Below, in pieces: positions 24,396 to 57,430 of a DNA stretch of 64,000 nucleotides. The first letter of the stretch is position 1. Each line of letters begins with the position of its first letter. A program made the position numbers and the translations under genes. Below the pieces are notes generated by a model. It ran no database searches and was not told where the DNA came from. It saw only the letters and a program-made list of their open reading frames with translations. Source of the DNA: Chloroflexi bacterium AL-N1 (GTDB taxonomy: Bacteria > Chloroflexota > Chloroflexia > Chloroflexales > Roseiflexaceae); the NCBI GenBank assembly GCA_013122435.1, contig WYDT01000011.1:124001-188000 (forward strand), in the 5' to 3' direction.

Positions 24396-24410
24396 TAACA
24401 GGTGTATCTT

Positions 24411-26822: not shown

Positions 26823-26890
26823 TAACGGTCGTGGATGAGTACAGGACAATGAGCAGGCACCAGATTGTTTGTGTTGGTGTCTATTTGTGT

Positions 26891-26919
26891 TTGCTCCTAT
26901 ACGATACGTCTGCTATACT
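26891..26919 (+). promoter_or_regulatory. Promoter of the FHA-GAF-cyclase gene
   Basis: TTGCTC (26891-26896), 17-base spacer ending in TGC, TATACT (26914-26919). Confidence 0.65.
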
Positions 26920-26997
26920 GAAAAAACCGAGGGGTCGTTACTACCATCTAAATGTGAACCCTCGAAAGTAAGCAGTTCAAACCAAGGAAGTATATAC

Positions 26998-28515
26998 ATG
27001 GCCCGTGTCTCAGTGTCCATCCACAATGAACAACGTTCTTTTGCTGTCACTGAGCAAGGTATATCGATTGGTCGTGCACTTGATAATGAGATTGTGTTGA
27101 ACGATGTAACGGTATCCCGCCAACATGCGGTGATTGCATTACGCCAGCACGAAGCATATATTCAGGATCTTGGTAGTCGGAATGGTATCTTTGTCAATCG
27201 GTTACGGGTCAAAGAGTCATTACTCAATGATGGTGATACTATCCGAATTGGGCCATTCGACATCCATTTTGAGAATCGCGCAGTACAAAGCGTAGTACTC
27301 GACGACAAAAAATATTTCCCACTGGCTGCCGATGTCCGCGAAATTCAGTCGAATGAACTCCCCGAGTTTGCACTTGATCTGAAAGAATTCTACCGGATTA
27401 GCAAACGTCTCGATAATTTGCTGAAAGTGAATGATTTGCTGGAAGCAGTGATGGATGAAGTTCTCAAGCTTATACCAGCACACCGTGGTATATTGTTGCT
27501 GCGTAGGGGTGGTGAGCTTATTCCAATGATTGTCTATCCCCCCAATCAGAACGATATCACACTCAGTTCAACTATCGCTCACAATGCCCTTGAAGGAAAC
27601 GAGGCGGTCCTAACACGCGATGCACGGCTTGATTTCGCTGGTTCAGATAGCATTATCAGTGCAAACATCCGTTCCGCCATCTGTGTTCCCCTCATCAGTG
27701 AAAGTAAATCAATCGGGCTTATCTATCTTGATTCACCAGGGCGTGATCAATTTACTGAACAACAACGTGATTTGCTTGCAGCGCTCGCCAACCAGGCAGC
27801 TATCAATATCCAACGAGCGCGACTAACGGAAGAACTGCATAAACAAGAACAGCTCTTACAGAATCTTGAACGCTTTATGTCACCTAACGTGGCCAAATTA
27901 GTTGCTAGCTACTACTCACAACATGGTCAGCTCTGGGAGCCACAAGAACTTATAGTAAGCGTATTGTTTGCCGATGTAAAAGGGTTTAGTACCCTTTCAG
28001 AAAATCTTTCACCGCGTGAAGCTCAGGATCTCCTCAACGAATATTTGCACGAAATGACCGAGGTTATTTTTCATCACAGCGGTACACTCGACAAATACAT
28101 CGGGGATGGTATCATGGCCCTATTCGGTGCACCACGGCTCTCGGATACGGTCGAATCAGATCACAATGCTCTTGCAGCAGTTCAAGCGGCGCTTGATATG
28201 ATCACAGCACATCAAAAGCTGATGGCAAGACTTGATACACGCAAGCAATTTGAATTTCGCATCGGCATTAACACCGGACCAGTCTATGCTGGATTCTTTG
28301 GGACACGGCAACGTTTGGAGTATACTGTCATTGGTGATACCGTCAACACAGCAGCACGTCTAGAGGCCGCCGCAAACCCTAACAGTATCTTGATAGGAGA
28401 AGCAACCTATCAGGCTATCAGTAATATATTCAACATTCAAGAAATGGGTGAATTACAACTCAAAGGGAAAACCCAACGTGTACGTGCCTATATGGTCTTG
28501 GGACGATCATCTTAA
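26998..28515 (+). CDS. FHA-GAF class III adenylate cyclase
   Basis: 505 residues. N-terminal FHA domain (about 1-95; GRALDNEIVLNDVTVSRQHAVI, LGSRNGIFVN), which reads phosphothreonine; a GAF domain (about 145-300; AHRGILLLRRGG, ICVPLISESKSIGLIYLD); and a class III cyclase domain (about 315-500). Metal Asp residues are seen in VLFADVKGFS and IGDGIMALFG; the Lys in LDKYIGDG and Asp in YTVIGDTVNTAARLE are the adenine-specifying pair, with Asn and Arg of NTAARLE for transition-state binding, so cAMP is the expected product. Soluble. AAGGAAG precedes ATG 26998. FHA suggests control by a Ser/Thr kinase; the only kinase-like gene here (45437) looks inactive. Confidence 0.94.
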   Translation: MARVSVSIHNEQRSFAVTEQGISIGRALDNEIVLNDVTVSRQHAVIALRQHEAYIQDLGSRNGIFVNRLRVKESLLNDGDTIRIGPFDIHFENRAVQSVVLDDKKYFPLAADVREIQSNELPEFALDLKEFYRISKRLDNLLKVNDLLEAVMDEVLKLIPAHRGILLLRRGGELIPMIVYPPNQNDITLSSTIAHNALEGNEAVLTRDARLDFAGSDSIISANIRSAICVPLISESKSIGLIYLDSPGRDQFTEQQRDLLAALANQAAINIQRARLTEELHKQEQLLQNLERFMSPNVAKLVASYYSQHGQLWEPQELIVSVLFADVKGFSTLSENLSPREAQDLLNEYLHEMTEVIFHHSGTLDKYIGDGIMALFGAPRLSDTVESDHNALAAVQAALDMITAHQKLMARLDTRKQFEFRIGINTGPVYAGFFGTRQRLEYTVIGDTVNTAARLEAAANPNSILIGEATYQAISNIFNIQEMGELQLKGKTQRVRAYMVLGRSS

Positions 28516-37714: not shown

Positions 37715-38692
37715 TTATTCCTCTGGGTCGAGTACGTGTTCAGCCATAATAAAACGGCGTGTCCCTGTGTCGCTGCGTAACACCAACGACTGTGTCTGTG
37801 CGAGATCACCACGATACCGCACCCCCTCAAGCAGCGGGCCATCAGTAATGCCTGTTGCCGCGAAAAATACCCGATCACTGGAAATCAACTGATCACTGGT
37901 TAGAATTCGATGTATATCAAAACCAGCTTCCTTTACTGCAAGCTGTTCCACGGCACTCTGTGGTGCCAGACGGCCTAGCATCGCGCCACCAAGTGCTTTC
38001 ACGCCACATGCAGCAATCAATCCCTCTGGAACGCCCCCAATACCCATGAGAATGTCGACCTTGCTATCAGGCGAGGCTGCCATAAGTGCACCAGCAATAT
38101 CACCATCAGAACGGAGCATGACGCGTGCACCAGCCAGCCGTATTTCCTTGATCAGTTCAGCATGGCGCGGACGATCCAGCACAAATACAATGAGATCGCG
38201 CACAGCTTTCTGCTTGATTCGCGCAATCAAGGCCAGTGTCCAGGCAGCCGGCGCATCCATACACTCGGCTACAAGTGAGTCCCGCGCCTCACGTGCTACT
38301 ACAATTTTTTCCATGTAGATAGCTGGTTTGGGTGACCATATGGTCCCACGTGGTGCCGCCGCCGCTACTGCGACAGCGCCGGGGCGTCCCTGGAGCAGAA
38401 GCTTCCTGCCATCAATAGGGTCAACAACGACATCCATGGCGGGCCCCTGACCAGAGCCCACCTGCCGATTTGTTTCCAGCAACGTGCGGGTCGCCAGTTT
38501 TTCTTCCTCGCCAATCACAATGCGACCATCGAACTCGAGCATATCCAGCGCCTGTGCCATTGCTTCAGTCGCTGCTAAATCCGCTTCGTCACGTTTGCCA
38601 ACACCCATCCAGCGACCAGCCACACATGCGGCGGCTTCAGTTACACGCACCAGATCGAAACCCCAATTGCGAAAGGAAGCGAGTTTACTCAT
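37715..38692 (-). CDS. glpX: Class II fructose-1,6-bisphosphatase
   Basis: Hydrolyses fructose 1,6-bisphosphate (and in some bacteria sedoheptulose 1,7-bisphosphate) in gluconeogenesis or the Calvin cycle. 325 residues: VTEAAACVAGRWMGVGKRDEAD, GRIVIGEEEK, VVVDPIDGRKLL, DRPRHAELIKEIRLAGAR and GIGGVPEGLIAACG. In many family members the first of these Asp motifs reads DPIDGT; here it is DPIDGR. Two adjacent ATG codons exist; the second (38692) has the better distance from AGGAGG. The stop codon of the SulP gene overlaps this start, so the two genes are translationally coupled. Confidence 0.93.
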   Translation of the reverse strand: MSKLASFRNWGFDLVRVTEAAACVAGRWMGVGKRDEADLAATEAMAQALDMLEFDGRIVIGEEEKLATRTLLETNRQVGSGQGPAMDVVVDPIDGRKLLLQGRPGAVAVAAAAPRGTIWSPKPAIYMEKIVVAREARDSLVAECMDAPAAWTLALIARIKQKAVRDLIVFVLDRPRHAELIKEIRLAGARVMLRSDGDIAGALMAASPDSKVDILMGIGGVPEGLIAACGVKALGGAMLGRLAPQSAVEQLAVKEAGFDIHRILTSDQLISSDRVFFAATGITDGPLLEGVRYRGDLAQTQSLVLRSDTGTRRFIMAEHVLDPEE

Positions 38693-40830
38693 CATTTTCC
38701 TCCTGTGTCACATTCGTCAACTGCAGCAAGCAAACCTGCTGACTCCCAGGCCAGCATGCCACCCTGTAAAATCTTGATGTCGGTATAGCCAGTGTCTCGC
38801 GCAATCGCAAACACGCGGGCGCTGCGCCGACCACCACGGCAGACAAACACAACGGGACGGCTCCGTGGGATTTGTTGCATGCTCGTAATCACTTCGGTAA
38901 ACGGCACCAGACGCGACTGTGGGACATGGCCCCGGCGAAACTCACGCGGTTCACGGACATCGATCACGAGCGGCGCATTATCTTCACGCAACCAGTGCCA
39001 TAAATCGTTGGGGGATATCTCATCGATATCATCTGCTGGTAGTTCGTCATAGAGAGGAATCTCGACCGGGTAGTCCGGGCGCGGTAGATTCTGACACTCA
39101 CGAAAGACTCGCACATTACTCTCATAAATACAGATGGCCGGATCTAACACGCGATAGAACAGATATTCAATCGCTGTATCCTCATCAAGAACGTGATCAT
39201 GCCCCAGGAAATCGCAAAATTTTGTGGATTGCATGACCTTCCACACCGGATCACGAATACTAACGAGATACACATCACCACCCTGATCACGATACATACG
39301 CACCACATTTTCGAGCATATGAATGCCACTGATGTCACAGTGTTGCACACTCTGCAACCGTAAGAGCAAAAAGCGCTGGCTGCTATTGCGTGCACGATGC
39401 CGACAGATCGTTTCCTCGACGTGGCTCACTGCACCAAAATAGAGATCGCCAAGAATGTCGATAATAGCTAACTGCGGACACTCTGGCTTCTGTGGTTGGT
39501 GCGTCCAATGACGAAACGCATCATCAGGGACAACCGAGTGCACACGGGGCATACTTGTTTTCATAATGTAGTAGGCCAGTGCCATGATGATACCGATGAG
39601 CACTGCAAACTGGAGTGGAAGGAGCAATGTAGCAAACAATGTTACGACCATAATCACGGCATCCCCACGTGCCCCGCGCCAGATACGCACCATTTCTTTG
39701 CGATCAATCATGCCAATTGCGATGACAATGAGTACTATCGCCAGGGCTGCACGTGGGACGTACGCGGTCAGAGGAGCCAGGAAGAGCATTCCAATCAATA
39801 CGACAAGACCAGAGAATACCGCAGCCATCGGTGTTCTGGCACCTGCACGATAATTCAAGGCAGACCGATTGAACGATCCTGAACAGGGATAACCAGAGAG
39901 TAACCCACTCGCAATGTTCGCCAACCCTTGACCAATAAACTCCTGATTGCTGTCGATACGCTGACCACTCTGGGCAGCAATTGAGCGAGCGATGGCCGTC
40001 GCCTCCACCAGACCAATGGTGGCTAAAGCCAGTGCTCCCATCGAAAGTTCACCAATTAAGGTTAGATCTACCAGCGATATCTGGGCCAGGGTCGGCAAAC
40101 CACCCGGCAGCGGCCCAAGAATGACAACTCCCTCACGATCCAGATGAAACGCCCACACCACGAATGCTGCCAGTACCAGACCAATCAGCGGGGCTGGTAT
40201 TTTGGGAATCAACCGCCGCAACGCAATAATTACTCCAATGGTAACAGCGCCAATCGCAAGACTGGGAAGATGAATATCAGGGATATGCAAAGCTACATGC
40301 TGCAATGTGCTCAATACTCCGGGACCAGCAGCAGACTCCAGACGCAATAGATGGTTAATCTGTCCAATACAAATCAGAGCACCTGCACCAGCAGTAAACC
40401 CGATCACAACAGAGTCGGAGACAAAATTGACCAGTACTCCAAGACGTGCTATGCCCATGATGAGACGGAAGGTACCAACCATCACAGCCAACACACCTGC
40501 TGCAGCGATAAAGGTGGGCGTACCAGGTTCTGCAATTGGCAGCAAGGTTGAAAGGACCAGAATCGATGCAGTATTGGTCGGACCACTATGCAGGTGATTT
40601 GACGATCCCCATAAACCACCAATGATAGCCACCACCACCGCCGAGTACAAACCCATTTCCGGTGGTAAACCGGCCAGCAGTGCAAAAGCAATCGCCTGTG
40701 GAATAAGCACCACACCGACAGTTAAACCGGCAATACTGTCAGCGCGTAGGTTCTCGATCTGATACGAACGCAAGAGATTGACAGGTCGCAACAACACGGA
40801 TGGAACTGTTTGGAGACTCGTCAACATCAT
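38692..40830 (-). CDS. SulP anion transporter with STAS and rhodanese domains
   Basis: 712 residues. About 1-430 is the SulP membrane domain (AGLTVGVVLIPQAIAFALLAGLPPEMGLYSAVV, LHSGPTNTASILVLSTL, GLANIASGLLSGYPCSGSFNRSALN), about 445-560 a STAS domain, and about 605-705 a rhodanese domain with VIDVREPREFRRGHV and active-site loop VFVCRGGRRSAR (Cys near 663). SulP members carry sulfate, bicarbonate or dicarboxylates; the substrate cannot be told here. The rhodanese points to sulfur handling, whereas coupling to glpX would fit bicarbonate uptake and carbon fixation. GATAGGAAC precedes the start. Confidence 0.93.
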   Translation of the reverse strand: MMLTSLQTVPSVLLRPVNLLRSYQIENLRADSIAGLTVGVVLIPQAIAFALLAGLPPEMGLYSAVVVAIIGGLWGSSNHLHSGPTNTASILVLSTLLPIAEPGTPTFIAAAGVLAVMVGTFRLIMGIARLGVLVNFVSDSVVIGFTAGAGALICIGQINHLLRLESAAGPGVLSTLQHVALHIPDIHLPSLAIGAVTIGVIIALRRLIPKIPAPLIGLVLAAFVVWAFHLDREGVVILGPLPGGLPTLAQISLVDLTLIGELSMGALALATIGLVEATAIARSIAAQSGQRIDSNQEFIGQGLANIASGLLSGYPCSGSFNRSALNYRAGARTPMAAVFSGLVVLIGMLFLAPLTAYVPRAALAIVLIVIAIGMIDRKEMVRIWRGARGDAVIMVVTLFATLLLPLQFAVLIGIIMALAYYIMKTSMPRVHSVVPDDAFRHWTHQPQKPECPQLAIIDILGDLYFGAVSHVEETICRHRARNSSQRFLLLRLQSVQHCDISGIHMLENVVRMYRDQGGDVYLVSIRDPVWKVMQSTKFCDFLGHDHVLDEDTAIEYLFYRVLDPAICIYESNVRVFRECQNLPRPDYPVEIPLYDELPADDIDEISPNDLWHWLREDNAPLVIDVREPREFRRGHVPQSRLVPFTEVITSMQQIPRSRPVVFVCRGGRRSARVFAIARDTGYTDIKILQGGMLAWESAGLLAAVDECDTGGK

Positions 40831-45110: not shown

Positions 45111-45297
45111 GAGCTTTCTCTATCTTGATAGGTAAGGATAATACAATCTCCCGTATGGGAGAGATGAACAATTGCGTCAGTGAGTATAGCATCTGCATTG
45201 CAGTGTTGCAAATAGTAGTTGGTAGCCAGAGATAGTACAATCTGTTCCTACTGCGTCTGAAAGCCTAGGCTTTATTTTGCATTATGTTCGTATTATT

Positions 45298-45326
45298 TTG
45301 CAGGCCAAGAACATTTGTGCTATAAT
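45298..45326 (+). promoter_or_regulatory. Promoter of the pseudokinase/zinc-finger gene
   Basis: TTGCAG (45298-45303), 17-base spacer ending in TGC, TATAAT (45321-45326), in the 326-base gap divergent from recJ. The leader is about 105 bases; nothing else is evident in this gap. Confidence 0.65.
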
Positions 45327-45436
45327 AACATCATCACTTTATGTCGAGTTTCGCTTCCTCAATAGATTCTTGCGTTCTCGCCCACTCAACGCTATACTGT
45401 GGAACGTCTTATACAGCAAAAAGGGTGTAGAGTGCG

Positions 45437-47335
45437 ATGTCTGTATCAAACGCCAGTTCACGAACTCCAACTACTAACGACGATGCCGCCGTAACCAAGT
45501 CCCCATCAGCTGAATCGCGCGAGCTGACCAATTACCGCTTGGGCGATCGTCTCGAACAAGAAGAACTCGCAACGGTTTACCGGGCAACTCATCAAACGCT
45601 CGATCGGCCTGTCCAAATCCACATTCTCCGTCGCACAGATTGGGTCTCATCAAGTCGCTTTCAACTCGCTGCGCGTCTGTCTGCCCGTTTCAACCACCCC
45701 AATATCTTGCCTGTTATCGACGCGGGCCACGACGAGCGCTATGGCGCGTATATCGTGACACCACATATCGAAGGACGCACACTAGAAGAAGTACTCGCTA
45801 ATGGACCGCTTGAGTCGATGCTGGCGCTCCGTATCATCACGCAAATTGGCTCAGCACTGGACTATCTGCATGAGCAGAAGGTAGTTCATCGCGATGTACG
45901 TCCCGGCAACATCCTCCTCACTCCACAGGGAGTGGCGTATCTCAACAATCTAAGTCTGGCTGCCGCACCAGACACACCGGATTTCTCCAGTATTGAAGAT
46001 GGCGATTATCTCACCCCGTACTCGGCACCTGAGCAGACCTTTGTAGACAAGGATGCCTCTCCAGCACAAGACTTTTATAGTATCGGCGCACTACTCTACC
46101 ACATGCTTGGCGGGAATCTCCCACCTGCCCCTGGCGAGAAACTCAAGTCTCTTGGTGAGCGTGATACAGCCATGGCGAATGCAGATCGGGTGGTGCAAAA
46201 GCTGATGATGCAAGAACCAGGTCAACGCTTCCAGAATAGTAGCCAGGTGATAGCAGCGCTGCGTCAGGCATTGCGAGACCAGATCGATGATTCCACCGAC
46301 GATATGGAAGAGTCACGCTGGGAAACGATGGCCGAATGGCTTGAAAACCCATTGGAAACAGTGCTTGGTACACTCATCGAGCAGGACTTTTTGACCAAGA
46401 GCCGTTCCCGTGCCGATCATATGCACCGTACTGGTGTGCTTAAGCGACAGATTGACCGCTGGAGTCGTCAGAGTTTTCTACGAAAACCTGATCTTGGTGA
46501 TATTATTCAACCAGACCAGATCACTAGTTACAATGTGTATTTCTATGAGCTAGAAGCGCACTACGAAACACGCACTCCACCTAAAAAACGAACAGAAATA
46601 CATAAAGGTGGTGCACTCACTCCTGCGCTTCAACAACCAGAACTCTGGGATGTCAAAGTACCGGAACTTGAGGCATTTGTAGACGCTCCAGCCAAAGAGA
46701 TCGTGATGCCTGGCTCACAAAAAGTGATCGCCTGTACTGAATGTAACGGCACCACCCAAACTGTTTGTAAAACCTGTAGTGGCAAAGGGTCTATTGAACG
46801 TGTGCGGCGGGTGAAGGCCAGTGATGGCACGACACGCAATGAGAAAATCCAGGAGAATTGTCCTGCATGTCGTGGGTATGGCAAAATCCCGTGTTCCGGT
46901 TGCGAAGCCACCGGCCAGATGCGTGAAGAGCAAGCCTTTACGTGGTCACGTCATGGCCGTGCGTATTTCAACGAAGACGATATCACAGGGCTCCACAAAC
47001 CGACACTCGAAGAGCAACTGCAACAGGTCTACAAGGATCGTATCGACCCCTACGAGTCACGTTGGCATCAGGTCGCCCCTCTGCACGAATTGATCGAGGA
47101 AGCTATCAAGGGCGGTGGCAATGACACTCGTCTGATTACCGCAGAACTTACCATTCGTGGTGTACCAGTGACTGAAGTAGACTATCAACTTTCAAATGCA
47201 CCACATAGTCTCACAATTGTTGGCTTCAAAGAAGAGATTCGCGGAGACTGGACCGTCATTGATATAAGCAAACTTGTCCCGTATGCAGTCATTGCCGTAC
47301 TTGTGCTGATTCTGCTGCTGGTGATAATGTTTTAA
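45437..47335 (+). CDS. Pseudokinase with DnaJ-type zinc finger and membrane tail
   Basis: 632 residues. About 30-280 is a Ser/Thr kinase fold: YRLGDRLEQEELATVYRA, VVHRDVRPGNILL (HRD near 151-153 kept), and TPYSAPEQ (APE kept). The ATP-site Lys is lost (VQIHILRR where VAVKVL-type sequence is expected) and DFG is replaced by text like YLNNLSLA, so it should be catalytically dead or strongly altered. About 432-490 carries four CxxC units arranged as in the DnaJ zinc finger: CTECNG, CKTCSGKG, CPACRGYG, CSGCEATG. A single membrane helix near 612-631 ends the protein, so the bulk faces the cytoplasm. Middle part (300-425) is not recognised. Monocistronic. Likely a scaffold or sensor; function unknown. 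Confidence 0.88.
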   Translation: MSVSNASSRTPTTNDDAAVTKSPSAESRELTNYRLGDRLEQEELATVYRATHQTLDRPVQIHILRRTDWVSSSRFQLAARLSARFNHPNILPVIDAGHDERYGAYIVTPHIEGRTLEEVLANGPLESMLALRIITQIGSALDYLHEQKVVHRDVRPGNILLTPQGVAYLNNLSLAAAPDTPDFSSIEDGDYLTPYSAPEQTFVDKDASPAQDFYSIGALLYHMLGGNLPPAPGEKLKSLGERDTAMANADRVVQKLMMQEPGQRFQNSSQVIAALRQALRDQIDDSTDDMEESRWETMAEWLENPLETVLGTLIEQDFLTKSRSRADHMHRTGVLKRQIDRWSRQSFLRKPDLGDIIQPDQITSYNVYFYELEAHYETRTPPKKRTEIHKGGALTPALQQPELWDVKVPELEAFVDAPAKEIVMPGSQKVIACTECNGTTQTVCKTCSGKGSIERVRRVKASDGTTRNEKIQENCPACRGYGKIPCSGCEATGQMREEQAFTWSRHGRAYFNEDDITGLHKPTLEEQLQQVYKDRIDPYESRWHQVAPLHELIEEAIKGGGNDTRLITAELTIRGVPVTEVDYQLSNAPHSLTIVGFKEEIRGDWTVIDISKLVPYAVIAVLVLILLLVIMF

Positions 47336-47419: not shown

Positions 47420-48712
47420 CTAGCCCCTCACCTCTACCAAAGCCTCTGCCGCTGCTGCGATAGTCTGATCAATCAGGGCATCACTGTGCGCCAGCGACAT
47501 AAATCCCGCCTCAAACTGCGATGGCGCAAGGTACACACCACGATCCAACATTGCGTGGAAGAAACGACCATAGCGCTCCGTATGGGAACGCTTGGCCATC
47601 GTGTAATCCAATACGGGTTCTTCATTAAAGAAAAAGCCCCACATACTGCCCGCTCTCCCGACTTGCAACGGAATATTGGCCTCGTGTGCAGCACGAGTGA
47701 GACCTTCGCAGAGCTTTGTGGTATATCCCTCAAGCGTTTCGTAGACGCCAGGCTGTCTGATTGCGCGTAGTGTAGCAATACCAGCCACCATCGCCAGTGG
47801 GTTGCCCGAGAGTGTGCCAGCCTGATACATGGGCCCTGCCGGAGCAACCAGCTCCATCACATCTCTACGACCACCATAAGCGGCGGCTGGCAACCCACCT
47901 CCAACGACCTTGCCCAGACAGGTCAGATCGGGAGTCACACCATAACGCGCCTGTGCACCACCCAGCGCCACCCGAAAGCCAGTCATTACCTCATCGAAGA
48001 GCAAGAGCGCTCCGTGTTTATCAGCTAACTGGCGCAACCCTGTGAGGAAACCATCATGTGGCGGGACAAAACCCATATTCCCGACCACCGGCTCAACCGC
48101 GATCACCGCGACCTGTTCAGGATGGGCCTCCAGTAATTCCTCAACCGAACCTAAGTCATTAAAGACAGCAGTGAGCGTACCCGCAGTTGCCGCAGACGGC
48201 ACACCCGGACTATCCGGCAACCCTAGCGTTGCCACACCTGAGCCAGCCTGAACCAGCAGGCTGTCGGCGTGGCCATGGTAGCACCCCGCAAACTTGATGA
48301 CCTTATCACGTCCAGTGTAGGCACGAGCCAGTCGCAACGCACTCATCGCCGCCTCGGTACCAGAGGAGACAAAGCGCACCAGCTCCATCGCTGGCATGGC
48401 CTGCTGCACCAGACGAACAATCTCGCTCTCAAGTGGGGTCGGCGCACCAAAGGTCGTGCCACGCGCCGCCTGCTCAGTGATGGCAGCAACCACATCTGGA
48501 TGCGCGTGACCCAGAATCAATGGTCCCCATGAGAGCACATAATCGATATAACGATTACCATCGACATCATGGAGATAGGCGCCCTCACCACGCTCGATAA
48601 ACCGTGGCACACCACCAACACTGCGAAAGGCGCGCACGGGGCTATTGACACCCCCAGGGATAAGCTGTTGTGCTTCTTCAAACAACGCGGTTGAATGTGC
48701 AGTATTTGACAT
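47420..48712 (-). CDS. hemL: Glutamate-1-semialdehyde 2,1-aminomutase
   Basis: Second step of the C5 heme pathway: glutamate 1-semialdehyde to 5-aminolevulinate, PLP-dependent. 430 residues: [85 protein letters not shown] and the PLP Lys in [17 protein letters not shown]. Last gene of the long leftward heme block, 24 bases after hemB. Confidence 0.97.
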
Positions 48713-48736
48713 AGGTTGTAGTCCTCTTGTTATTAT

Positions 48737-49723
48737 CTAGACTTCTGCCAGCCAACGAGCAACCTCTTTAGCATAGTACGTAATAATCATATCGGCACCG
48801 GCACGCTTGATCGCCATCAAACTCTCGATAGCTGCCCGACGCTCATCCAACCACCCATTCTGTACCGCCGCCTTGATCATCGCATACTCACCACTAACCT
48901 GATAGGCTGCCAGCGGCAGATCGTAATTGGAACGGACCTCGTGTATCACATCGAGATACGGACCAGCCGGTTTGACCATCAACATATCGGCGCCCTCAAC
49001 GACATCGAGATCCACCTCTCGCAACGCCTCACGACTATTGGCCGGATCCATCTGGTAAGCGCGGCGGTCACCAAATTGGGGCGTCGACTCGGCGGCCTCG
49101 CGGAAAGGCCCGTAAAATGCTGAGGAAAACTTGGCCGCATATGAAAGAATAGGAATCTGGTGGTGGTTACTCTCATCCAGTGCGTGTCGTATCGCACCGA
49201 CTTGGCCATCCATCATGGCACTTGGCGCTACAATATCCGCACCAGCATCAGCATATGCGACCGCCGCACGCCCCAACAGATCGAGTGTCGGATCATTCAA
49301 TACATCGCCGTGTCCCGGTTCTGGTGTCAACACGCCACAATGTCCGTGGTCAGTATACTCACACAAACACACATCGGCAATCACCATCAATTCCGGAGCC
49401 TGTGCTTTGATCGCACGAATGGCATGAGGAACTGGCCCATCCGAATCCCACGCCTGGCTACCATGACCATCCTTGTGATGGGGGATACCAAACAACAAAA
49501 CCGATGGGATATTGCGCTCCATCAAGATATCGATCTCATGATGAATCTGGTCCACCGACAACTGTGCGTGACCAGGCATAGAACTGATTGGTTTGGTAAT
49601 ATGCTGGCCTGCTGCAATAAACAGCGGTGCAATCAGATCATCAGTGGTAAGCGTTGTTTCGCGTACCATCCGGCGCAAGTTCGCAGTGCGTCGCAGCCGA
49701 CGTGGACGTTGAATAAGTGTCAT
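48737..49723 (-). CDS. hemB: Delta-aminolevulinic acid dehydratase (porphobilinogen synthase)
   Basis: Condenses two 5-aminolevulinate molecules to porphobilinogen. 328 residues: RPRRLRR start, [21 protein letters not shown], the Cys-type metal site [17 protein letters not shown] (zinc-dependent form, near 118), [35 protein letters not shown] (first Schiff-base Lys) and [14 protein letters not shown] (second). Upstream gene is the DUF1990 protein. Confidence 0.97.
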
Positions 49724-49792
49724 AGAACCCTCCTCGTTCTGTAGCTATGCTCAATAAACGAGTAATTATCAGCTATTATTTTGGATAATACA

Positions 49793-50389
49793 TTAGATTG
49801 TTTCGCGTACAACCTTACTACCAACAGATCGCAACATAGCCTGTTTCGATGCCTGAGCAAAGCGCTTCTGAAGTAGGCGTGCGACAGGGAAACCGAGTCG
49901 TACCAACAGTTGGTTGGGTTGCGAAAAGGCCAGCAGATCGTACGACACCGTATCATCGTGGCGATTCCACTCAATGAGAAAACGTTCTTCACCACGTTCC
50001 GCATGCTCAGGCAAAGTGCCGTAGGCAAACCCATAGCGACGCACCGGACCATCCTCATCAACAAGATACACAATCCGACAGGCATTGAGCGACCAGCAGC
50101 CTGGCAAACGCGCTAGCACACCAACGACCGTCCCAACCTCAATAGATGCATCAGGCCAACACAACGAGACCCAGCCAATATCGAACATGGCCCAGCGATG
50201 GAGTACGGCAACAGCTCGCGTAAACACATCCTGACCATGGCCGAGTACCACACGATTGTGATCAATGATGTAACCGCGTGGTGGCACACTTTGCGAAGCA
50301 CCAACTTCTGCGTATGAAAACGGCAGATTCCGTTGTGTTTCCAGAAACTGCCGAAGATTGTCTCGCGTGGGTTGTTTAAAAAGAAACAT
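49793..50389 (-). CDS. DUF1990 family protein in the heme block
   Basis: 198 residues. Features of DUF1990: NLPFSYAEVGAS near the start, YIIDHNRVVLGHGQDVFTRAVAVLHRWAMFDIGW, and YGFAYGTLPEHAERGEERFLIEW; these proteins have an SRPBCC-like fold of unknown function. It begins 4 bases after the hemD stop and lies ahead of hemB, so it is part of the heme transcript; a role with tetrapyrroles can only be guessed. No membrane segments. Confidence 0.82.
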   Translation of the reverse strand: MFLFKQPTRDNLRQFLETQRNLPFSYAEVGASQSVPPRGYIIDHNRVVLGHGQDVFTRAVAVLHRWAMFDIGWVSLCWPDASIEVGTVVGVLARLPGCWSLNACRIVYLVDEDGPVRRYGFAYGTLPEHAERGEERFLIEWNRHDDTVSYDLLAFSQPNQLLVRLGFPVARLLQKRFAQASKQAMLRSVGSKVVRETI

Positions 50390-50393
50390 GTAC

Positions 50394-51191
50394 TTACGTC
50401 ACTGTAGGATGGCAAAACTGCCGCAATAAGGCGTCCACAAGGCCACCGACCGTATAGGTATGTGCCACAGAATGTACATACAGCTGCTCTTGCTCCGCTG
50501 TGGCCGCCGTGACGGGGCCAATACAAATCACCACTATTTCTTGCAACATCTGGCGTGCCTCACTACGACTCACGCCCTGCTGCTCCATCCCATCGAGCAG
50601 AAATCGTACCGTTGAGGAGCTTGTAAACGTAATAGCATCAACCTTACGTTCTCGTAACAATGTAATCAATTGCTGCGCCCCTGGACCCGGGATGGTACGA
50701 TATGCATCAATTGCATCAACAAACGCGCCCTTCTGACGTAGCCCATCAGCAAGCGTTTTACGGGCAATATCTGCACGAGGCAACAACATGTGCTGCCCCA
50801 GGACATCGCCAATCTCGTCAAGAATGGCCTCAGCCACATACGCAGATGGTACAAAATCTACATGTAGATTATGTTGTCTCAGCGCATCAGCCGTAGCCGG
50901 ACCAATTGAACCAACTTTGAAACTCATTGCGTTTGGATCAACACCAAGTTTGTGCATACGTTCAAACACCACCTCAACACCATTCACGCTCGTAAACAGC
51001 AACCAATCGTATTCAGAGAGTTGTGTGAGCGCGGTATCAAGCGGGGTGTAGTCGTTCAACGGTACAATTGTGATCGCAGGACAAACGATTGGTATCGTTC
51101 CAAGTTCTTCTAACTGTGCCACTAAATCAGAGGCTTGCTCTTCAGCGCGTGTAACAACAATACGTTTATCGAGGATTAATCGTTTATCCAT
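50394..51191 (-). CDS. hemD: Uroporphyrinogen-III synthase
   Basis: Closes and inverts ring D of hydroxymethylbilane. 265 residues. The family is poorly conserved, but KRIVVTRAEEQASDLVAQLEELG at the start, WLLFTSVNGVEVVFERM, VGSIGPATADALR, LLPRADIARKTLADGLRQKGA, AITFTSSSTVRFLLD and VVICIGPVTAATAE are typical, and the gene stands between hemC and hemB. Confidence 0.93.
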   Translation of the reverse strand: MDKRLILDKRIVVTRAEEQASDLVAQLEELGTIPIVCPAITIVPLNDYTPLDTALTQLSEYDWLLFTSVNGVEVVFERMHKLGVDPNAMSFKVGSIGPATADALRQHNLHVDFVPSAYVAEAILDEIGDVLGQHMLLPRADIARKTLADGLRQKGAFVDAIDAYRTIPGPGAQQLITLLRERKVDAITFTSSSTVRFLLDGMEQQGVSRSEARQMLQEIVVICIGPVTAATAEQEQLYVHSVAHTYTVGGLVDALLRQFCHPTVT

Positions 51192-51212
51192 AGTATGATT
51201 GCCTCATGAAAG

Positions 51213-52190
51213 CTATGTGTTATTTAACATTAACAGTGCCCGTCCACCGTTGTCCAATAGCTGATCAGCCAGTGATGAACCCAATGCTACCGGGTCTTCT
51301 GTTGAACCCATTTGTTCACCACGCACCACATGCCCATCATTCGCCCCGATCAAGCCAATCAGTGTAATCGTCTCATCCTCAACGCGAGCATACGCACCAA
51401 TCGGCACCTGACACCCACCACCGATCCGCGCGAGAAATGCCCGTTCTGTGGTGGCCATCAATCGGCTTACTGGATCATCCAGCAGTGCGAGGAAAGCAGC
51501 AGTTCGCTCATCATTAGCACGTACTTCAATACCTAACACACCTTGACTTACGGCTGGCACCATGACATCTGGTTCGAGGAACTGGGTAATTTCATCATGT
51601 AACCCCAGTCGAATCAGTCCCGCCGCTGCTAATACAATCGCATCGTACTGGCCTTCGTGCAGTTTCCGTAAGCGTGTATCAACATTGCCTCGCAAATCCC
51701 TGATCTGCAGATCAGGGCGCAGATGGCGCAACTGACACGCGCGTCGCAGGCTGCTGGTCCCCACCACAGCACCATGTGGCAGTTCACTGAGACTCAAATT
51801 ATCGCGCGAGAGCAAGGCATCACGCGGATCGGCACGCTTGGGGAAAGCTGCCAAAGCCATATCTGGCGGTAACTCTGAGGGTAAATCTTTGGCGCTATGT
51901 ACCGCCAGATCGATCTTCTCGTTTCGCATTGCCTCTTCGATCTCAGTCACAAACAGACCCTTGTCACCAATCTCATTGAGCGGGCGATCCAGGATGATAT
52001 CCCCTTTGGTCGTGATATGTTCAACGGCAACTTGCAACCCCGGATGCGCCTCGCACAGCGCTTCCCGTACCATATCCGTTTGGGCCAGCGCCAATTTGCT
52101 GCGACGGGTGCCAATCGTGAGTATGACTGTTGATTGAGGCATGTTGGCTGGTGCGGGCGCATTCTCGTTTACTTGTTGATATCCATTCAT
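51213..52190 (-). CDS. hemC: Hydroxymethylbilane synthase (porphobilinogen deaminase)
   Basis: Polymerises four porphobilinogens. Motifs: TIGTRRSKLALAQTDMV, AVHSAKDLPSELP, RVGTSSLRR-type sequence GTSSLRRACQLRHLRPDL, RGNVDTRLRKL and the dipyrromethane Cys in GGGCQVPIGAYA. The start is uncertain: ATG 52190 is given (325 residues), a GTG at 52226 or the ATG at 52142 are possible, none with a good ribosome site. The gene begins right after hemH. Confidence 0.93.
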   Translation of the reverse strand: MNGYQQVNENAPAPANMPQSTVILTIGTRRSKLALAQTDMVREALCEAHPGLQVAVEHITTKGDIILDRPLNEIGDKGLFVTEIEEAMRNEKIDLAVHSAKDLPSELPPDMALAAFPKRADPRDALLSRDNLSLSELPHGAVVGTSSLRRACQLRHLRPDLQIRDLRGNVDTRLRKLHEGQYDAIVLAAAGLIRLGLHDEITQFLEPDVMVPAVSQGVLGIEVRANDERTAAFLALLDDPVSRLMATTERAFLARIGGGCQVPIGAYARVEDETITLIGLIGANDGHVVRGEQMGSTEDPVALGSSLADQLLDNGGRALLMLNNT

Positions 52191-52229
52191 TCGTTTGTCT
52201 TGTCTATCTACGTTTGTATGAACCACCGA

Positions 52230-53183
52230 TCAGGTATTCGTCACCAGTGCCTGTCCCTTCGCCGAAAGCACCACTGATGCGAGTACTTCAACAAATTCCG
52301 GATCAGCATTAGGCATGCGGATGCGATGAAGGGTCATGCCATGTTCTTCAGCCTTTTGTTGTGCCTCATAATCGATATCGTAAAAGATCTCCAGATGCTC
52401 GGAAACAAAGCCAAACGGCACACTCAGTATGTAACGCTTGCCTTCCTGCGCCAATTCATCCATGTAGTCGCAAATATCCGGGCCAAGCCAAGGCTCACCA
52501 GTTGCTCCGGCACTTTGGAAACAAAAACGCCAGTCTTGCAATCCAAGTAGTTCAGCGATTCCAGCAGCACTTTCGAGCAATTGATCTTGGTAGGGGTCCC
52601 CCCAGGTTTTAATGCGTTCTGGCAGGCTGTGGGCGCTAAATAACACTGTCACCTGGCTGCGCGCTTCCGCCGGAAACTGTTGCATGGTTGTCATAATTCG
52701 TTCGGCAATCATGCGACGGAAGGCCGCATTTTCCTGCCAGCTTTCAATGACGTAGATGTTTATGGGTGTATCAAGTCGCTCCTGACCTTTCTCAACGTAG
52801 TCACGATAGCCCCCAACACTTATCTTTGAGTAGTGTGGCGCCAGTACCAGACCAATCGCATCAGTGATGCCATCCTGCGCCATCTCCTGAAGCACATCTG
52901 CAATATACGGATGCCAATACTTCATCCCCAGGTAGACTTTGTACTTGCCAGGGTAGGCCCGTTCGAGGCGATCCTGTAAACCCTGCGCCGTTGATTGCGA
53001 GATTTCGAGGAGGGGTGTACGGCCACCGACGAGCGCATACCGTTCACGTAATTCCTCAACCTTCTCTGGTTCTGGCTTACGGCCTTTGCGAACGTTTGTA
53101 TAATATTCCTCAACATCATCAAGTTTTTCCGGTGTGCCGTAGGCAAGCAGAAAAATACCCAGCGGTGTACGAGAGTCATTCAT
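52230..53183 (-). CDS. hemH: Ferrochelatase, coproporphyrin type
   Basis: Inserts Fe2+ into the porphyrin. 317 residues with FLLAYGTPEKLDDVEEYYTNVRKGRKP, MKYWHPYIADVL, LAPHYSKISVGGYRDYV, LFSAHSLPERI (catalytic His) and PFGFVSEHLEIFYDID (catalytic Glu). Because HemQ (55477) and HemY (58298) are encoded in the same block and no hemN or hemF is seen, the substrate is most likely coproporphyrin III (CpfC function). The GNAT gene precedes it with a 1-base gap. Confidence 0.95.
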   Translation of the reverse strand: MNDSRTPLGIFLLAYGTPEKLDDVEEYYTNVRKGRKPEPEKVEELRERYALVGGRTPLLEISQSTAQGLQDRLERAYPGKYKVYLGMKYWHPYIADVLQEMAQDGITDAIGLVLAPHYSKISVGGYRDYVEKGQERLDTPINIYVIESWQENAAFRRMIAERIMTTMQQFPAEARSQVTVLFSAHSLPERIKTWGDPYQDQLLESAAGIAELLGLQDWRFCFQSAGATGEPWLGPDICDYMDELAQEGKRYILSVPFGFVSEHLEIFYDIDYEAQQKAEEHGMTLHRIRMPNADPEFVEVLASVVLSAKGQALVTNT

Positions 53184-53184
53184 T

Positions 53185-54081
53185 TCATTTCTCCACTATT
53201 TTGCGAAAACTACACATTGTGTGTGCATGTTGAAACCCTACCCGTCGATAGAGTCCAAGGGCACGCTGATTTTCGGCATTAACTGTCAGGTTAATTTCCT
53301 GAACAGTCTCAAATGAAAACATCCACTGCAACGATGCCGCCATAAGTTGACTACCAATACCGCGGCCACGGGCTGCATTGTCAACACCAATAAACTCGAT
53401 ACTCCCATCACCAAAAGCTGGCTCCACTTCGACATACGCATAGCCAAGCAGTTGACCATTGTCGGTAGCAATGAACATACGACGCTGATCGTTCAAACGG
53501 TTCAGTATTTCTTGACCAGAGTAGTAGGTTCCAGGGAAAATCTGGTCGTGCAGATTACACACAGCCTCATAGTACAGTTCGGTCAGTACCTCAGCGGTAG
53601 TCTCGGAAAGTTGCGCGAGGAGACCTCGATGAAAGTTCCAGATAAAATCGTGGCTGTGTTGGCGAAACCCATGTCGCTCTGCAAAGGCAATACAATTGGC
53701 GTGCTGCTCATTACAGAAAAGTTCATGTTCTAGTGTTATCTGCGGCAACAGAGGCTGGAGATTGCTCCACAATCCATCAGCAACCGTCGGCCAGTCCGAA
53801 TGGTTGGCAAACGGGCCATACAACCATGTGCGGCCAGCATCGAGGTCAATATCAAAGCCAAGCGCTCCCACCAACTCCTGACCTGCGTGTGCAACAATCC
53901 ATGCCTTGTGCGGCAACACATCAAAATCTTGGATGGATTGGGCAATTTCTGCTGGCTCAGTACCAAGATAGCCAATATGATGCTGTGGTTGCTGGTTCAA
54001 ATCAGCCAACCAAGCCGCGAGTTGTGTCAGATCTGATGGCTGTCGGGTGAGGCGTGCAAACTGCAACATCATTGCATCCAA
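53185..54081 (-). CDS. GNAT-family N-acetyltransferase in the heme block
   Basis: 298 residues: apparently two GNAT halves. The C-terminal one (about 150-298) has the acetyl-CoA loop in VDNAARGRGIGSQLMAASLQW and the closing VNAENQRALGLYRRVGFQHAH; the N-terminal half keeps the fold but lacks a clear P-loop. It lies tightly between hemE (2 bases) and hemH (1 base), so it is cotranscribed. Substrate unknown; no direct link to heme chemistry is evident. Confidence 0.85.
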   Translation of the reverse strand: MDAMMLQFARLTRQPSDLTQLAAWLADLNQQPQHHIGYLGTEPAEIAQSIQDFDVLPHKAWIVAHAGQELVGALGFDIDLDAGRTWLYGPFANHSDWPTVADGLWSNLQPLLPQITLEHELFCNEQHANCIAFAERHGFRQHSHDFIWNFHRGLLAQLSETTAEVLTELYYEAVCNLHDQIFPGTYYSGQEILNRLNDQRRMFIATDNGQLLGYAYVEVEPAFGDGSIEFIGVDNAARGRGIGSQLMAASLQWMFSFETVQEINLTVNAENQRALGLYRRVGFQHAHTMCSFRKIVEK

Positions 54082-54083
54082 TC

Positions 54084-55124
54084 TCAGGACTGATGCACAA
54101 AATCGGTCAGTCGTGCCACATGTTCTACAGGCGTTTCGGTTAAGATACCATGACCCAGGTTAAAAATATGGCCGGGTCGACCAGCCGCACGTGCTAGAAT
54201 ATCGGCGGCGCGACGCTCGATCTCGGGCCACGGAGCAAATAATGCCATCGGGTCAAGATTGCCCTGGACAGCAAATCCGGGACCAAGTTGCGCCCATGCC
54301 TCATCAAGAGGAATACGCCAATCAACCCCGATCACATCGGCTTCGATATGTCGCAGCGTCGGGAGCATACCGCTGGTGGTTGTGCCAAAGTAAATCACGG
54401 GAACACCACGTTCCTTTACCGCAGCCACACAGCGTTGCACATGCGGCAGAACATACTCAGCATAATCACCAGGCGACAGAGAACCTACCCAACTATCAAA
54501 GAGTTGGACAGCGCTTGCACCTGCCTCAACCTGAGCCAGTAGGTAACTACTCACGACTGTTGCCAGTTTTTCCATGAGGAGATGCCATGTTTCCGGCTCA
54601 CGATACATCAGGAGTTTGCTACGGCGGAAGTCGCGCGATGAGCCACCTTCGATAGCATATGTCGCCAGCGTAAAGGGCGCGCCGCTAAAACCAATCAGTG
54701 GCACTTTGCCGGCCAATTCCTGAGTCACCAGACCAACGGCTTCAATGGTGTAACCAAGCGATTCATGTGGATCGGTGATACACAATGCTTCAATATCTGA
54801 CCGGGCACGGAGTGGATTGTGAATAACGGGGCCTTCACCTTGTTCATAAGTCAGGTGCAGACCCATGCCCTCAAGTAGCGGTGGCAGATCAGAGAATATA
54901 ATCGCCGCGTCGACATCGTAGGCACGGATTGGCTGGAGCGTCACCTCAGTGGCCAGTTCTGGCGTCTTTACGAGACCCAGAAATCCATGTTTCTCACGCA
55001 GGGCGCGGTATTCAGACATGTAACGACCTGCCTGACGCATAAACCACACAGGAGTACAATCAACTGGTTCGCGGCGGCAAGCTTTTAGAAAACGACTATC
55101 CTGTAATGTCAATGTAGTCCTCAT
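54084..55124 (-). CDS. hemE: Uroporphyrinogen decarboxylase
   Basis: Decarboxylates uroporphyrinogen III to coproporphyrinogen III. 346 residues: [29 protein letters not shown] (signature 1 with catalytic Arg), [36 protein letters not shown], and [13 protein letters not shown] at the C-terminus. First gene of the second half of the heme block, behind a 352-base gap with a possible extended -10 (reverse strand TTGTACAAT near 55150). Confidence 0.97.
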
Positions 55125-55476
55125 TTCTCACGCCTATCTATGTTGACGTTATTGTACAACATGGCGCCTGAGATATACTAATCAGTGTCTTCGATCAACC
55201 ATATCAGCACACTATTCACACCACCCAGGCAACTGATGTGTCTGCCACAGTCACGAGGATCTGGAGGATTTCACTATGTGGGCATCCTTGATCAATACAG
55301 CGTGAAGTGGTGAAGCGAGATGATCGATTAAGTAGCTAATTTAATCTGAAGACGCAACAATAAGACGTTCGTATACCGTACGGACTTGCATCATTCATCA
55401 TATTTTGAATTCATAGTATGTCGAGCAGTTATGCGTCAGGGTAACATAGAAGAGAGAAGGCACATCTTCGCATACA
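55125..55476. other. 352-base gap between hemE and hemQ
   Basis: No reading frame with a ribosome site, tRNA or clear terminator is seen. The right-to-left promoter of hemE probably lies near 55150 (reverse TTGTACAAT). The gap splits the heme block into a regulator/hemA/hemQ part and a hemE-to-hemL part. Confidence 0.45.
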
Positions 55477-56175
55477 TTACCCGATCAACGACAACACCTC
55501 ACGCAATGGTCGATGAATAGCCGTAATAATCGGCGTGTCACGCAGAGTGTATCGACGTGCCTCGGTATTACGAAGATCGGTTACCAATGAGCTAAAGCGC
55601 GGTAGATCTTCGGTTTCGTACGCCACGACAAACTCTTGATCGTCGATACCGGTTGTATATAACAACACTTGCCGAATATCCTCATACTCGTGTCCTACAC
55701 GGATATGCTCGTTCATCATCCCCTGGCGTGCTTCCCGACTCATAAGATACCAGTCAGCCGTTTTGCTAAATGGGTATACAATGAGATATGTTTGACGATC
55801 CTCCAGGTCAATAGCCTGTTCTTGTGTCGTCGGACGTTTGGTATATACCGAACGACGCGTAAAACCATAGAGATTGTGCGTCTGCTCAAGATACTGTCCC
55901 ATACCAGTTTGCAACAAACGACTGGTCATCTCCTGCATGGGAATAGGTGAAAGACCTTTTCGCCATAGCAAAAGATCACTGTCGATTTTCATGCCAATGG
56001 CACTGTAGGGATAGGTCCGAATATCTGGATCGGCTTCCTCTACTACACGGGCAAATGCCTCACGACCATCTTCCCGCGCACTGAGTGGCAAACGACGCCA
56101 GGCAGGATCAGCCTTAAAACAGGTATATTGGACAAATAAAGGTGGTCGTTCAACATTTTCTCGGTTCGATGACAT
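55477..56175 (-). CDS. hemQ: Coproheme decarboxylase (HemQ/ChdC)
   Basis: Final step of the coproporphyrin-dependent pathway: oxidative decarboxylation of coproheme III to heme b. 232 residues of the chlorite dismutase superfamily with YLIVYPFSKTADWYLMSREARQ (catalytic Tyr near 134), GMMNEHIRVGHEYEDIRQVLLYTTGIDDQEFVVAYET (proximal His in this stretch) and FSSLVTDLRNTEARRYT. The Arg and Tyr residues diagnostic for HemQ rather than chlorite dismutase appear to be kept. The start overlaps the last 26 bases of hemA, giving translational coupling. Confidence 0.95.
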   Translation of the reverse strand: MSSNRENVERPPLFVQYTCFKADPAWRRLPLSAREDGREAFARVVEEADPDIRTYPYSAIGMKIDSDLLLWRKGLSPIPMQEMTSRLLQTGMGQYLEQTHNLYGFTRRSVYTKRPTTQEQAIDLEDRQTYLIVYPFSKTADWYLMSREARQGMMNEHIRVGHEYEDIRQVLLYTTGIDDQEFVVAYETEDLPRFSSLVTDLRNTEARRYTLRDTPIITAIHRPLREVLSLIG

Positions 56176-57430
56176 GTGGTTCCCTCATTGTGTCTAGTTG
56201 AAACAGTTGCTGCACTGACTGGGCAAACTGAAGTCCCAGATCAGGATCTTTCATGGTTTTAATAGGTTGATGCAGTAATTTATTGATAATTGACGAACTC
56301 AAGGTGCGAATAGCCTCCTGTTCACGAGCTGAGAGTTCTGGCAAGCGTGCCAGCGTACGTTCTATCTCAGCCTCGCAGATGGCCTCAGCACGTTCACGTA
56401 GTGCACGGATAGTCGGCACAACCTGCTGAGCATTCCACCAATCCATAAATTTTTGCACTTCGTCCTCTACCAGCAACGCAGCACGTTGTACTTCTGTTGC
56501 ACGCATAGAACGATTTGTCTCACATATCTCTTGCATCCCGTCAACATCGATCAACGCGACACCGGACAGTTCTTGAATATGTGGATCAACATCACGTGGT
56601 ACGGCCAGATCGACAATAACAAGCGGTTGTGTGCGTGCATCCACCGCCTCTGCCATAGCGTCATAGCTAATAATATATCCTGGTGCCGAAGTGCAACTGA
56701 TAATTACATCACTAGACTGCATTGCCACTTCAAGTTGCTCAATGGAAAGTGACTCAACACCATAGCGCGTCGCGACATGTGCGGCACGTGATTCGGTGCG
56801 GCTCATTACATGGATCGTTACGTCTTCACCGTGCAGATGTTTGAGGGCAAGTTCACCCATACGTCCTGCACCAATGATAAGAAAACGATGTCCTGTAAGA
56901 CAACCAAGTGTCTGCTGCACAAAATCAAGACCGACCGAAACAACCGATACATGGCTGCGCGCAAGACCTGTCCGTGTGCGTGCAATTTTACCGGCGGTGA
57001 GTGCACTATCTACTAGGCGGCGTAAAACACCACCAAGAATGCCAGCATCCTTTGCTGTCGCCATTGCATGCTTGATTTGATTCACGATTTGTGTTTCGCC
57101 AAGCACCATCGAGTCAAGCCCCGCCGCCAGATGAAAGATGTGGCGAATGGCTTCGATGTCTGTGCGTATCTCAATAGAAGGTGCTATCTCATCGAGAGAG
57201 ATGTTATGCCAATCCGCGAAGAATCGTAAGAGCGCCTGGTCAACACCTTTATGATTGTCATCAAACGCATACACTTCTACCCGATTACAAGTTGAAAGAA
57301 TAAATCCCTCAGCAACATATGTTTGCAATGTAGCAAGTGCTGCAGGAAGATCGGCATCGCTAAATGTAAGATGTTCACGTACCTCAACAGATACATTTCT
57401 TTGATGGAGACTTATACAGACAAGTTGCAC
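56150..57430 (-). CDS. hemA: Glutamyl-tRNA reductase
   Basis: First step of tetrapyrrole synthesis: NADPH reduction of glutamyl-tRNA to glutamate 1-semialdehyde. 426 residues: SLHQRNVSVEVREHLTFS, FILSTCNRVEVYAF (catalytic Cys near 48), HIFHLAAGLDSMVLGETQIVNQIKHA, FLIIGAGRMGELALKHL, and SVDGMQEICETNR-type dimer region. Uses a GTG start at 57430 with AGG 6 bases upstream. It follows the MerR-type regulator gene after a 95-base gap; normally this step is the feedback point for heme. Confidence 0.96.
   Translation of the reverse strand: MQLVCISLHQRNVSVEVREHLTFSDADLPAALATLQTYVAEGFILSTCNRVEVYAFDDNHKGVDQALLRFFADWHNISLDEIAPSIEIRTDIEAIRHIFHLAAGLDSMVLGETQIVNQIKHAMATAKDAGILGGVLRRLVDSALTAGKIARTRTGLARSHVSVVSVGLDFVQQTLGCLTGHRFLIIGAGRMGELALKHLHGEDVTIHVMSRTESRAAHVATRYGVESLSIEQLEVAMQSSDVIISCTSAPGYIISYDAMAEAVDARTQPLVIVDLAVPRDVDPHIQELSGVALIDVDGMQEICETNRSMRATEVQRAALLVEDEVQKFMDWWNAQQVVPTIRALRERAEAICEAEIERTLARLPELSAREQEAIRTLSSSIINKLLHQPIKTMKDPDLGLQFAQSVQQLFQLDTMREPHVIEPRKC

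Follow-up and report, generated by a model that had tools for sequence, protein, structure and literature searches.

Gene structure and genomic context

The window is the whole 64,000-nucleotide stretch of DNA that was analysed, from Chloroflexi bacterium AL-N1, and all positions below are those of the window. A preliminary description had placed a dead kinase fold, four CxxC units and a single C-terminal membrane helix at 45437-47335, and each of these parts was borne out. The features of the gene are as follows.

45297..45326, + strand: match to a sigma-70-like promoter (TTTGCA-18-TATAAT, with TG ahead of the second hexamer), by consensus only
45420..45427, + strand: likely ribosome binding site AAAGGGTG, with the ATG 9 nt further on, inferred from the sequence
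45437..47335, + strand: whole gene of 632 aa (pseudokinase, zinc-finger domain, C-terminal membrane helix), from the ORF listing with an ATG start
45437..45520, + strand: N-terminal tail, residues 1-28, variable and predicted to be disordered (pLDDT < 50, high entropy)
45521..46306, + strand: predicted pseudokinase domain, residues 29-290 (Pfam PF00069, E=2e-23, residues 43-252)
45557..45574, + strand: degenerate Gly loop QEELAT, residues 41-46 (E43 in 38/38 orthologues)
45620..45622, + strand: His62 at the beta-3 Lys position (orthologues H24, A6, S6, R1, F1; active paralogue K in 27/27)
45668..45670, + strand: Ala78 at the helix-C Glu position (orthologues A36, S2; active paralogue E in 27/27)
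45887..45895, + strand: retained HRD, residues 151-153 (D in 38/38 orthologues)
45947..45955, + strand: NLS at the DFG position, residues 171-173 (D in 0/38 orthologues; N35, S1, G2)
46025..46033, + strand: retained APE, residues 197-199 (E in 38/38 orthologues)
46388..47236, + strand: C-terminal domain, residues 318-600, with a helical N part, long strands, a cysteine-rich core and a conserved PVTEV part (from conservation, AlphaFold and kinase-free relatives)
46733..46744, + strand: CxxC 1, C433/C436 (Cys in 65/65 relatives)
46766..46777, + strand: CxxC 2, C444/C447 (Cys in 65/65 relatives)
46859..46870, + strand: CxxC 3, C475/C478 (Cys in 65/65 relatives)
46892..46903, + strand: CxxC 4, C486/C489 (Cys in 65/65 relatives)
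47264..47329, + strand: C-terminal membrane helix, a tail anchor, residues 610-631 (AlphaFold helix; hydropathy 3.15; 65/65 relatives)

The full-length AlphaFold model reached a pLDDT of 78 and a pTM of 0.47, and the start of its N-lobe is unreliable. A chance origin of the features is ruled out by their conservation across Chloroflexales, and the presence of the same losses in 38 orthologues rules out a frame or assembly error behind the lost motifs.

The gene is flanked by a divergent recJ-like gene on its 5' side and by a convergent heme cluster on its 3' side, and some genomes carry an S41 protease and an RNA methyltransferase upstream of the dead form. The neighbours in the window differ from those of most relatives, and gene context was set aside as a functional clue. 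The heme biosynthesis cluster (hemL, hemB, hemD-like, hemC, hemH, URO-D and GlutR) lies downstream at 47420-57430 on the - strand. The window also encodes an FHA-GAF-guanylate cyclase protein (26869-28515, +), which adjoins a transglutaminase-DUF4129 protein (24402-26822), and a fusion of a SulP transporter, STAS and rhodanese (38692-40830, -). A role in anti-phage defence was dropped, as the PADLOC matches corresponded to a generic kinase. Viral or plasmid relatives of the protein were searched for and none was found.

Loss of catalytic motifs in the kinase domain

PknA was the nearest solved structure to the kinase domain by sequence (E=1e-24), and Foldseek matched the domain to PknA, PknB and PknI with a probability of 1.00. 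His62, NLS and the HRD and APE motifs were assigned by alignment to PknA. Motifs were counted in complete sequences of 38 dead and 27 intact proteins, the latter being paralogues of the same layout. Lys, the helix-C Glu, the HRD Asp, the catalytic Asn and the DFG Asp occur in 27/27 intact proteins, whereas the dead form has Lys, the helix-C Glu and the DFG Asp in 0/38 and the HRD Asp in 38/38. The second position of the Gly loop is G in 0/38 dead and 27/27 intact forms. The catalytic Asn, Asn158 in the window protein, is present in 32/38 orthologues.

The preliminary description had claimed His in place of the ATP-binding Lys and no DFG in a domain that keeps HRD and APE. This was confirmed, with Lys in 0/38 and the DFG Asp in 0/38; that is, an alignment places neither the catalytic Lys nor the DFG Asp in any of the 38 orthologues. 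Two further losses, in the Gly loop and at the helix-C Glu, had been missed. Judged from these motifs, the window protein is a bacterial Ser/Thr pseudokinase that is predicted to have lost phosphotransfer. The suggestion that the domain might read nucleotide state appears unlikely, because Lys, Glu, the DFG Asp and the Gly loop are all gone.

Orthologues and an active paralogue across Chloroflexales

Scanning genome contigs returned 14 full-length orthologues that align end to end with 44-60% identity and are labelled Roseiflexaceae, Oscillochloridaceae, Chloroflexaceae or Chloroflexi/Chloroflexales; the 15th match, from Gordonia, covered the kinase domain only. The eight Cys, HRD and the APE Glu are invariant in the 14 orthologues, and Lys and the DFG Asp are absent from all of them. 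The fusion is not an isolated event: the domain order is kept across Chloroflexales, and a homologue without the zinc finger was not met among the orthologues. The domain picture given earlier thus stood, but it had overlooked that most genomes also encode a paralogue with the same layout whose kinase is intact. In the genome of the window, this second protein (G000:C10:84791-86695) has VAIK, HRD and DFG intact. The eight Cys are present in 38/38 dead and 27/27 intact proteins.

We searched a profile of the C-terminal domain (A1) in 400 Chloroflexota genomes and 82 Chloroflexales genomes. The domain was present in 78/82 Chloroflexales genomes. Forms were sorted by profile score, with motifs checked in a subset of rows: 64 genomes hold both forms, six the dead form only, four the intact form only, four a kinase-free form and four none, and many of these assemblies, including several with a single form, are incomplete or fragmented. 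Genomes with both forms usually have one copy of each, and the dead and active genes are not adjacent. Two genomes of one genus (G425 and G426) and a third genome (G438) hold the dead form without the zinc-finger kinase paralogue; the dead form of G425 and G426 is diverged and lies on a long branch (0.97). Another genome, 99% complete (G432), holds the active form only. Pairing of the two forms is strong but not obligatory.

The active paralogues (L017, L055-L074, L109-L114) have HRD-x-S/A/T in 27/27; HRD-x-K is usual in Ser/Thr kinases. Chloroflexus-like genomes show the gene order FHA-winged-helix gene, aroA, DUF6812 gene, galE, active paralogue and MoxR ATPase gene (L060:167-3846). The 8.2 Mb genome of the window (G000) carries more than 20 Ser/Thr-kinase-like genes. 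Plant BSD2 and PSA2 would hint at a connection with photosynthesis, an idea that was set aside; some members of Chloroflexales are non-phototrophic.

Origin of the dead form and selection on it

A tree of the kinase domains was built with six other kinases from the same genome as the outgroup. The dead and intact forms make up two clades (SH-aLRT 100 and 97), each spanning all four Chloroflexales families, which suggests that the fusion and the duplication are older than the family radiation. A long stem (1.59 changes per column) leads to the dead clade, whose inner branches are short. That the dead form arose only once is firm. The exact sister relation of the two clades (support 80) may be obscured by long-branch effects, but the C-terminal domain, common to both and rare elsewhere, is independent evidence for it.

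The dead domain showed a dN/dS of 0.02-0.17 (Nei-Gojobori) among 13 close orthologue pairs, and in 10/13 of these the value was below that of the C-terminal domain of the same protein. Mean column entropy stood at 1.06 in the dead kinase domain, compared with 1.62 in the C-terminal domain of the same proteins and 1.38 in the intact kinase domain, although the comparison of dead with intact is rough as the two clades were sampled differently. Strong purifying selection acts on the dead domain, and no other part of the protein is as conserved. In addition, at 33 positions at least 36/38 dead forms share a residue that is not the commonest one of the intact form. These positions cluster in the Gly loop, beta-3 (RR-W), helix C, D-A-G-H-D-E, the hinge T-P and the activation segment. 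The pattern indicates a pseudokinase pocket that is rebuilt, not abandoned.

Four genomes of genus g2 (G142, G435, G437 and G441) have the C-terminal domain and the membrane helix only. A pseudokinase remnant and a zinc-finger kinase paralogue were sought in all four, and neither was detected. The four genomes form one clade on the tree; therefore, the co-loss counts as one event. Their g2 sisters hold both forms, except for G438 (dead only) and two poor assemblies (neither). The kinase-free g2 loci are L100 (G142), L115, L116 and L117.

Cysteine-rich C-terminal domain and kinase-free relatives

The Pfam DnaJ central domain (PF00684) aligns residues 433-492 with positions 1-64 of its 65-position model at 23 bits, which is below the cut-off of 32.7, and all 13 family members scanned (13/13) match it weakly. 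The glycines of the CxxC units are incomplete (CTECNGTT, CKTCSGKG, CPACRGYG and CSGCEATG); the window protein has neither the full CxxCxGxG in each unit nor the canonical inner spacing. The units had been described as spaced like those of DnaJ. Their 57-residue span agrees with this, but the inner offsets of 0/11/42/53 do not, as those of DnaJ are 0/17/39/53. The zinc finger of E. coli DnaJ spans 57 residues (144-200) (PMC2838759).

A DnaJ-like cysteine-rich domain as such holds up, with eight Cys in 65/65 proteins, and so does the membrane anchor, with a C-terminal hydrophobic helix in 65/65. The four CxxC units reported at first are part of a larger domain of ~280 residues with kinase-free relatives, which had escaped notice. 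Given the eight invariant Cys, the domain probably binds two zinc ions. Pfam and NCBIfam scans of the window protein gave no match to a J domain (HPD).

AlphaFold2 modelling of the C-terminal domain alone (15 sequences) gave a pLDDT of 86 and a pTM of 0.69. Against the PDB, Foldseek matched nothing beyond the cysteine-rich part of DnaJA2 (E 7e-5), and against viral models it returned DnaJ-like cores; the solved structures that resemble the domain do so in cysteine-rich cores only.

Another Chloroflexota class (that of G022, alignment A4) has kinase-free proteins homologous to the C-terminal domain. Both have the CxxC core and, ahead of the zinc finger, a region of ~100 residues in common (hhalign 99.1%, E=1.7e-18). 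These relatives occur in 37/47 genomes of that class, nearly always in single copy. They differ from the window protein in having no kinase and, within ~500 aa, eight CxxC-type motifs in two blocks of four. No membrane helix was evident in the sequences read, and no informative Pfam name was obtained for L077, L094, L084 and L086. By eye, PVTEV of the window protein matches P-x-T-R-V in these relatives. A conserved, peptidase-looking gene of ~420 aa precedes the kinase-free relative at many loci. Chloroflexota proteins of ~90-107 aa that consist almost only of CxxCxGxG repeats were also seen (L088:2511, -; L108:3308, +).

Comparison with known systems

The kinase fold resembles that of PknA/PknB-type kinases, which are the best sequence and structure matches of the window protein. 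In contrast to them, the window protein has no Lys, Glu or DFG and carries no extracellular sensor, PASTA or otherwise; its kinase and its helix are separated by a cytoplasmic cysteine-rich domain, and the chain stops after the helix. The PASTA kinase model NF033483 scored 136.8 bits against a cut-off of 450, in the kinase part only, and no PASTA repeats follow the helix.

A survey of bacterial pseudokinases defined seven families, ActPs1-3, GLW, CP1, DYD and DLHK (PMC12599244). Like the window protein, they have a degenerate beta-3 and DFG, and several have a C-terminal membrane helix; the HRD Asp is kept in DLHK, as it is here (PMC12599244). However, DLHK has no transmembrane region, whereas the C-terminal helix is found in 65/65 of the window family; DYD has Arg at beta-3 and a DYD motif, whereas the window family has Arg in 1/38 and NLS at DFG; and GLW and ActPs are degenerate in all three motifs, HRD included, whereas the HRD Asp is present in 38/38 here (PMC12599244). 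By the stated features of those families, the window family is set apart from DLHK, DYD, GLW and ActPs. The text of the survey mentions no Chloroflexi, zinc finger or DnaJ among its families (PMC12599244). In the open-access literature, we found no report of a bacterial kinase fused to CXXCXGXG. Bacterial pseudokinases are already known, and the version with a zinc finger and a membrane helix is absent from the one family survey found.

BSD2, ZnJ2, ORANGE and PSA2/EDA3 have, like the window protein, a DnaJ-like domain of four CxxC without a J domain, and some J-less DnaJ-type zinc-finger proteins are likewise membrane-anchored. BSD2, ZnJ2, ORANGE and PSA2/EDA3 are, however, plant or algal plastid proteins with no kinase domain, and the likeness is confined to the cysteine-rich core. 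BSD2_CRD matches 12/13 family members scanned. In layout, the C-terminal domain may also resemble eukaryotic SSUH2/ssu-2 (fls485), which has a similar succession of a W-V-P segment, CxxC repeats and, at the end, a P-T-E-V strand. SSUH2 differs from the window protein in having no kinase and a larger cysteine-rich core. It has been described as a putative J-less chaperone of no known function that carries four or more CxxCxGxG repeats (PMC2838759).

Discussion

As the likeliest of the mechanisms considered, we tentatively propose that the tail-anchored pseudokinase may be the non-catalytic partner of its own active paralogue, a reading that we hold to be quite possible though a little short of probable. 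An ancestral protein made of a Ser/Thr kinase, a DnaJ-like zinc-finger domain and a C-terminal helix would have been duplicated before the Chloroflexales families split, as the tree suggests. One duplicate retained the catalytic residues. In the other, Lys, Glu, DFG and the Gly loop disappeared along a single long branch, after which strong purifying selection set in on a remade pocket. Both proteins would lie at the cytoplasmic face of the inner membrane, where they may meet via their shared C-terminal and membrane modules and their kinase N-lobes. The pseudokinase would control the active kinase, either its activity or its choice of substrates, through conformation and not through phosphotransfer, and the zinc-binding domain may recognise or hold a protein client or mediate assembly.

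The partner model draws on the two supported clades that each contain all four families, on the 64/82 genomes with both forms, and on the 33 dead-specific fixed positions together with the dN/dS of 0.02-0.17. It is also consistent with the g2 clade, which has neither the pseudokinase domain nor the active paralogue. By analogy, the model would agree with other systems, in which activation or restraint of a live protein by its dead paralogue is well established (PMC5201418, PMC8141879); the window protein would then resemble the pseudokinase regulators found in animals and plants. It is weakened in that the genes are not adjacent, G425, G426 and G438 hold the dead form only and G432 the active form only, and the g2 co-loss is a single event in a set with many incomplete or fragmented assemblies.

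G425, G426 and G438, with the dead form only, speak for a protein that acts independently of the active paralogue, as a stand-alone scaffold or holdase whose pseudokinase would bind a membrane partner while its zinc-finger domain retains clients in the unfolded or nascent state. This reading is close to the role proposed in the preliminary description; we regard it as the main alternative, possible but doubtful. Holdase activity is known among J-less DnaJ-type zinc-finger proteins (ZnJ2, PMC5818400), the C-terminal domain has kinase-free relatives in another class, and the Foldseek match to DnaJA2 alone points the same way. The presence of the pair in 64/82 genomes argues against it, as do the four g2 genomes that are without both the active paralogue and the dead domain; moreover, the dead form of G425 and G426 lies on a long branch.

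An improbable alternative is non-canonical catalysis, in which the HRD Asp (38/38) and the mostly kept Asn (32/38) would support transferase chemistry of another kind or a different nucleotide site, following the example of SelO and SidJ-like kinase folds. The 33 fixed pseudokinase-specific positions around the pocket would suit such a role, and the HRD-keeping DLHK and DYD families have been discussed as possible ATP binders (PMC12599244). However, Lys, the helix-C Glu, the DFG Asp and the Gly loop are all absent, the variation at beta-3 (H, A, S, R, F) speaks against a new conserved catalytic residue there, and fold stability alone may explain why APE, HRD and the helix-F Asp are kept. One clade has lost the kinase domain entirely, as might be expected of a decaying relic that is structural ballast on a functional zinc-finger and membrane module, but this very improbable reading is largely refuted by selection (the low dN/dS, and an entropy of 1.06 against 1.62 in the C-terminal domain) and by retention of the domain across four families.

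Returning to the partner model, bacterial pseudokinases are largely uncharacterised by experiment (PMC12599244). In Chloroflexales, an active paralogue of equal layout is present in most genomes, and the catalytic loss maps to one branch. The kinase pair is linked to a J-less DnaJ-type zinc-finger domain that stands alone in other bacteria. It is conceivable, although we consider it rather unlikely, that this order-wide pair of a dead and a live kinase, both with a client-binding zinc-finger domain and a membrane tail, would represent a bacterial logic of the RAF/KSR or HER3 type, set on a chaperone-like module with kinase-free relatives in other Chloroflexota and possibly in SSUH2. The dead and live pair offers a concrete two-protein system for asking whether a bacterial pseudokinase regulates its live paralogue.
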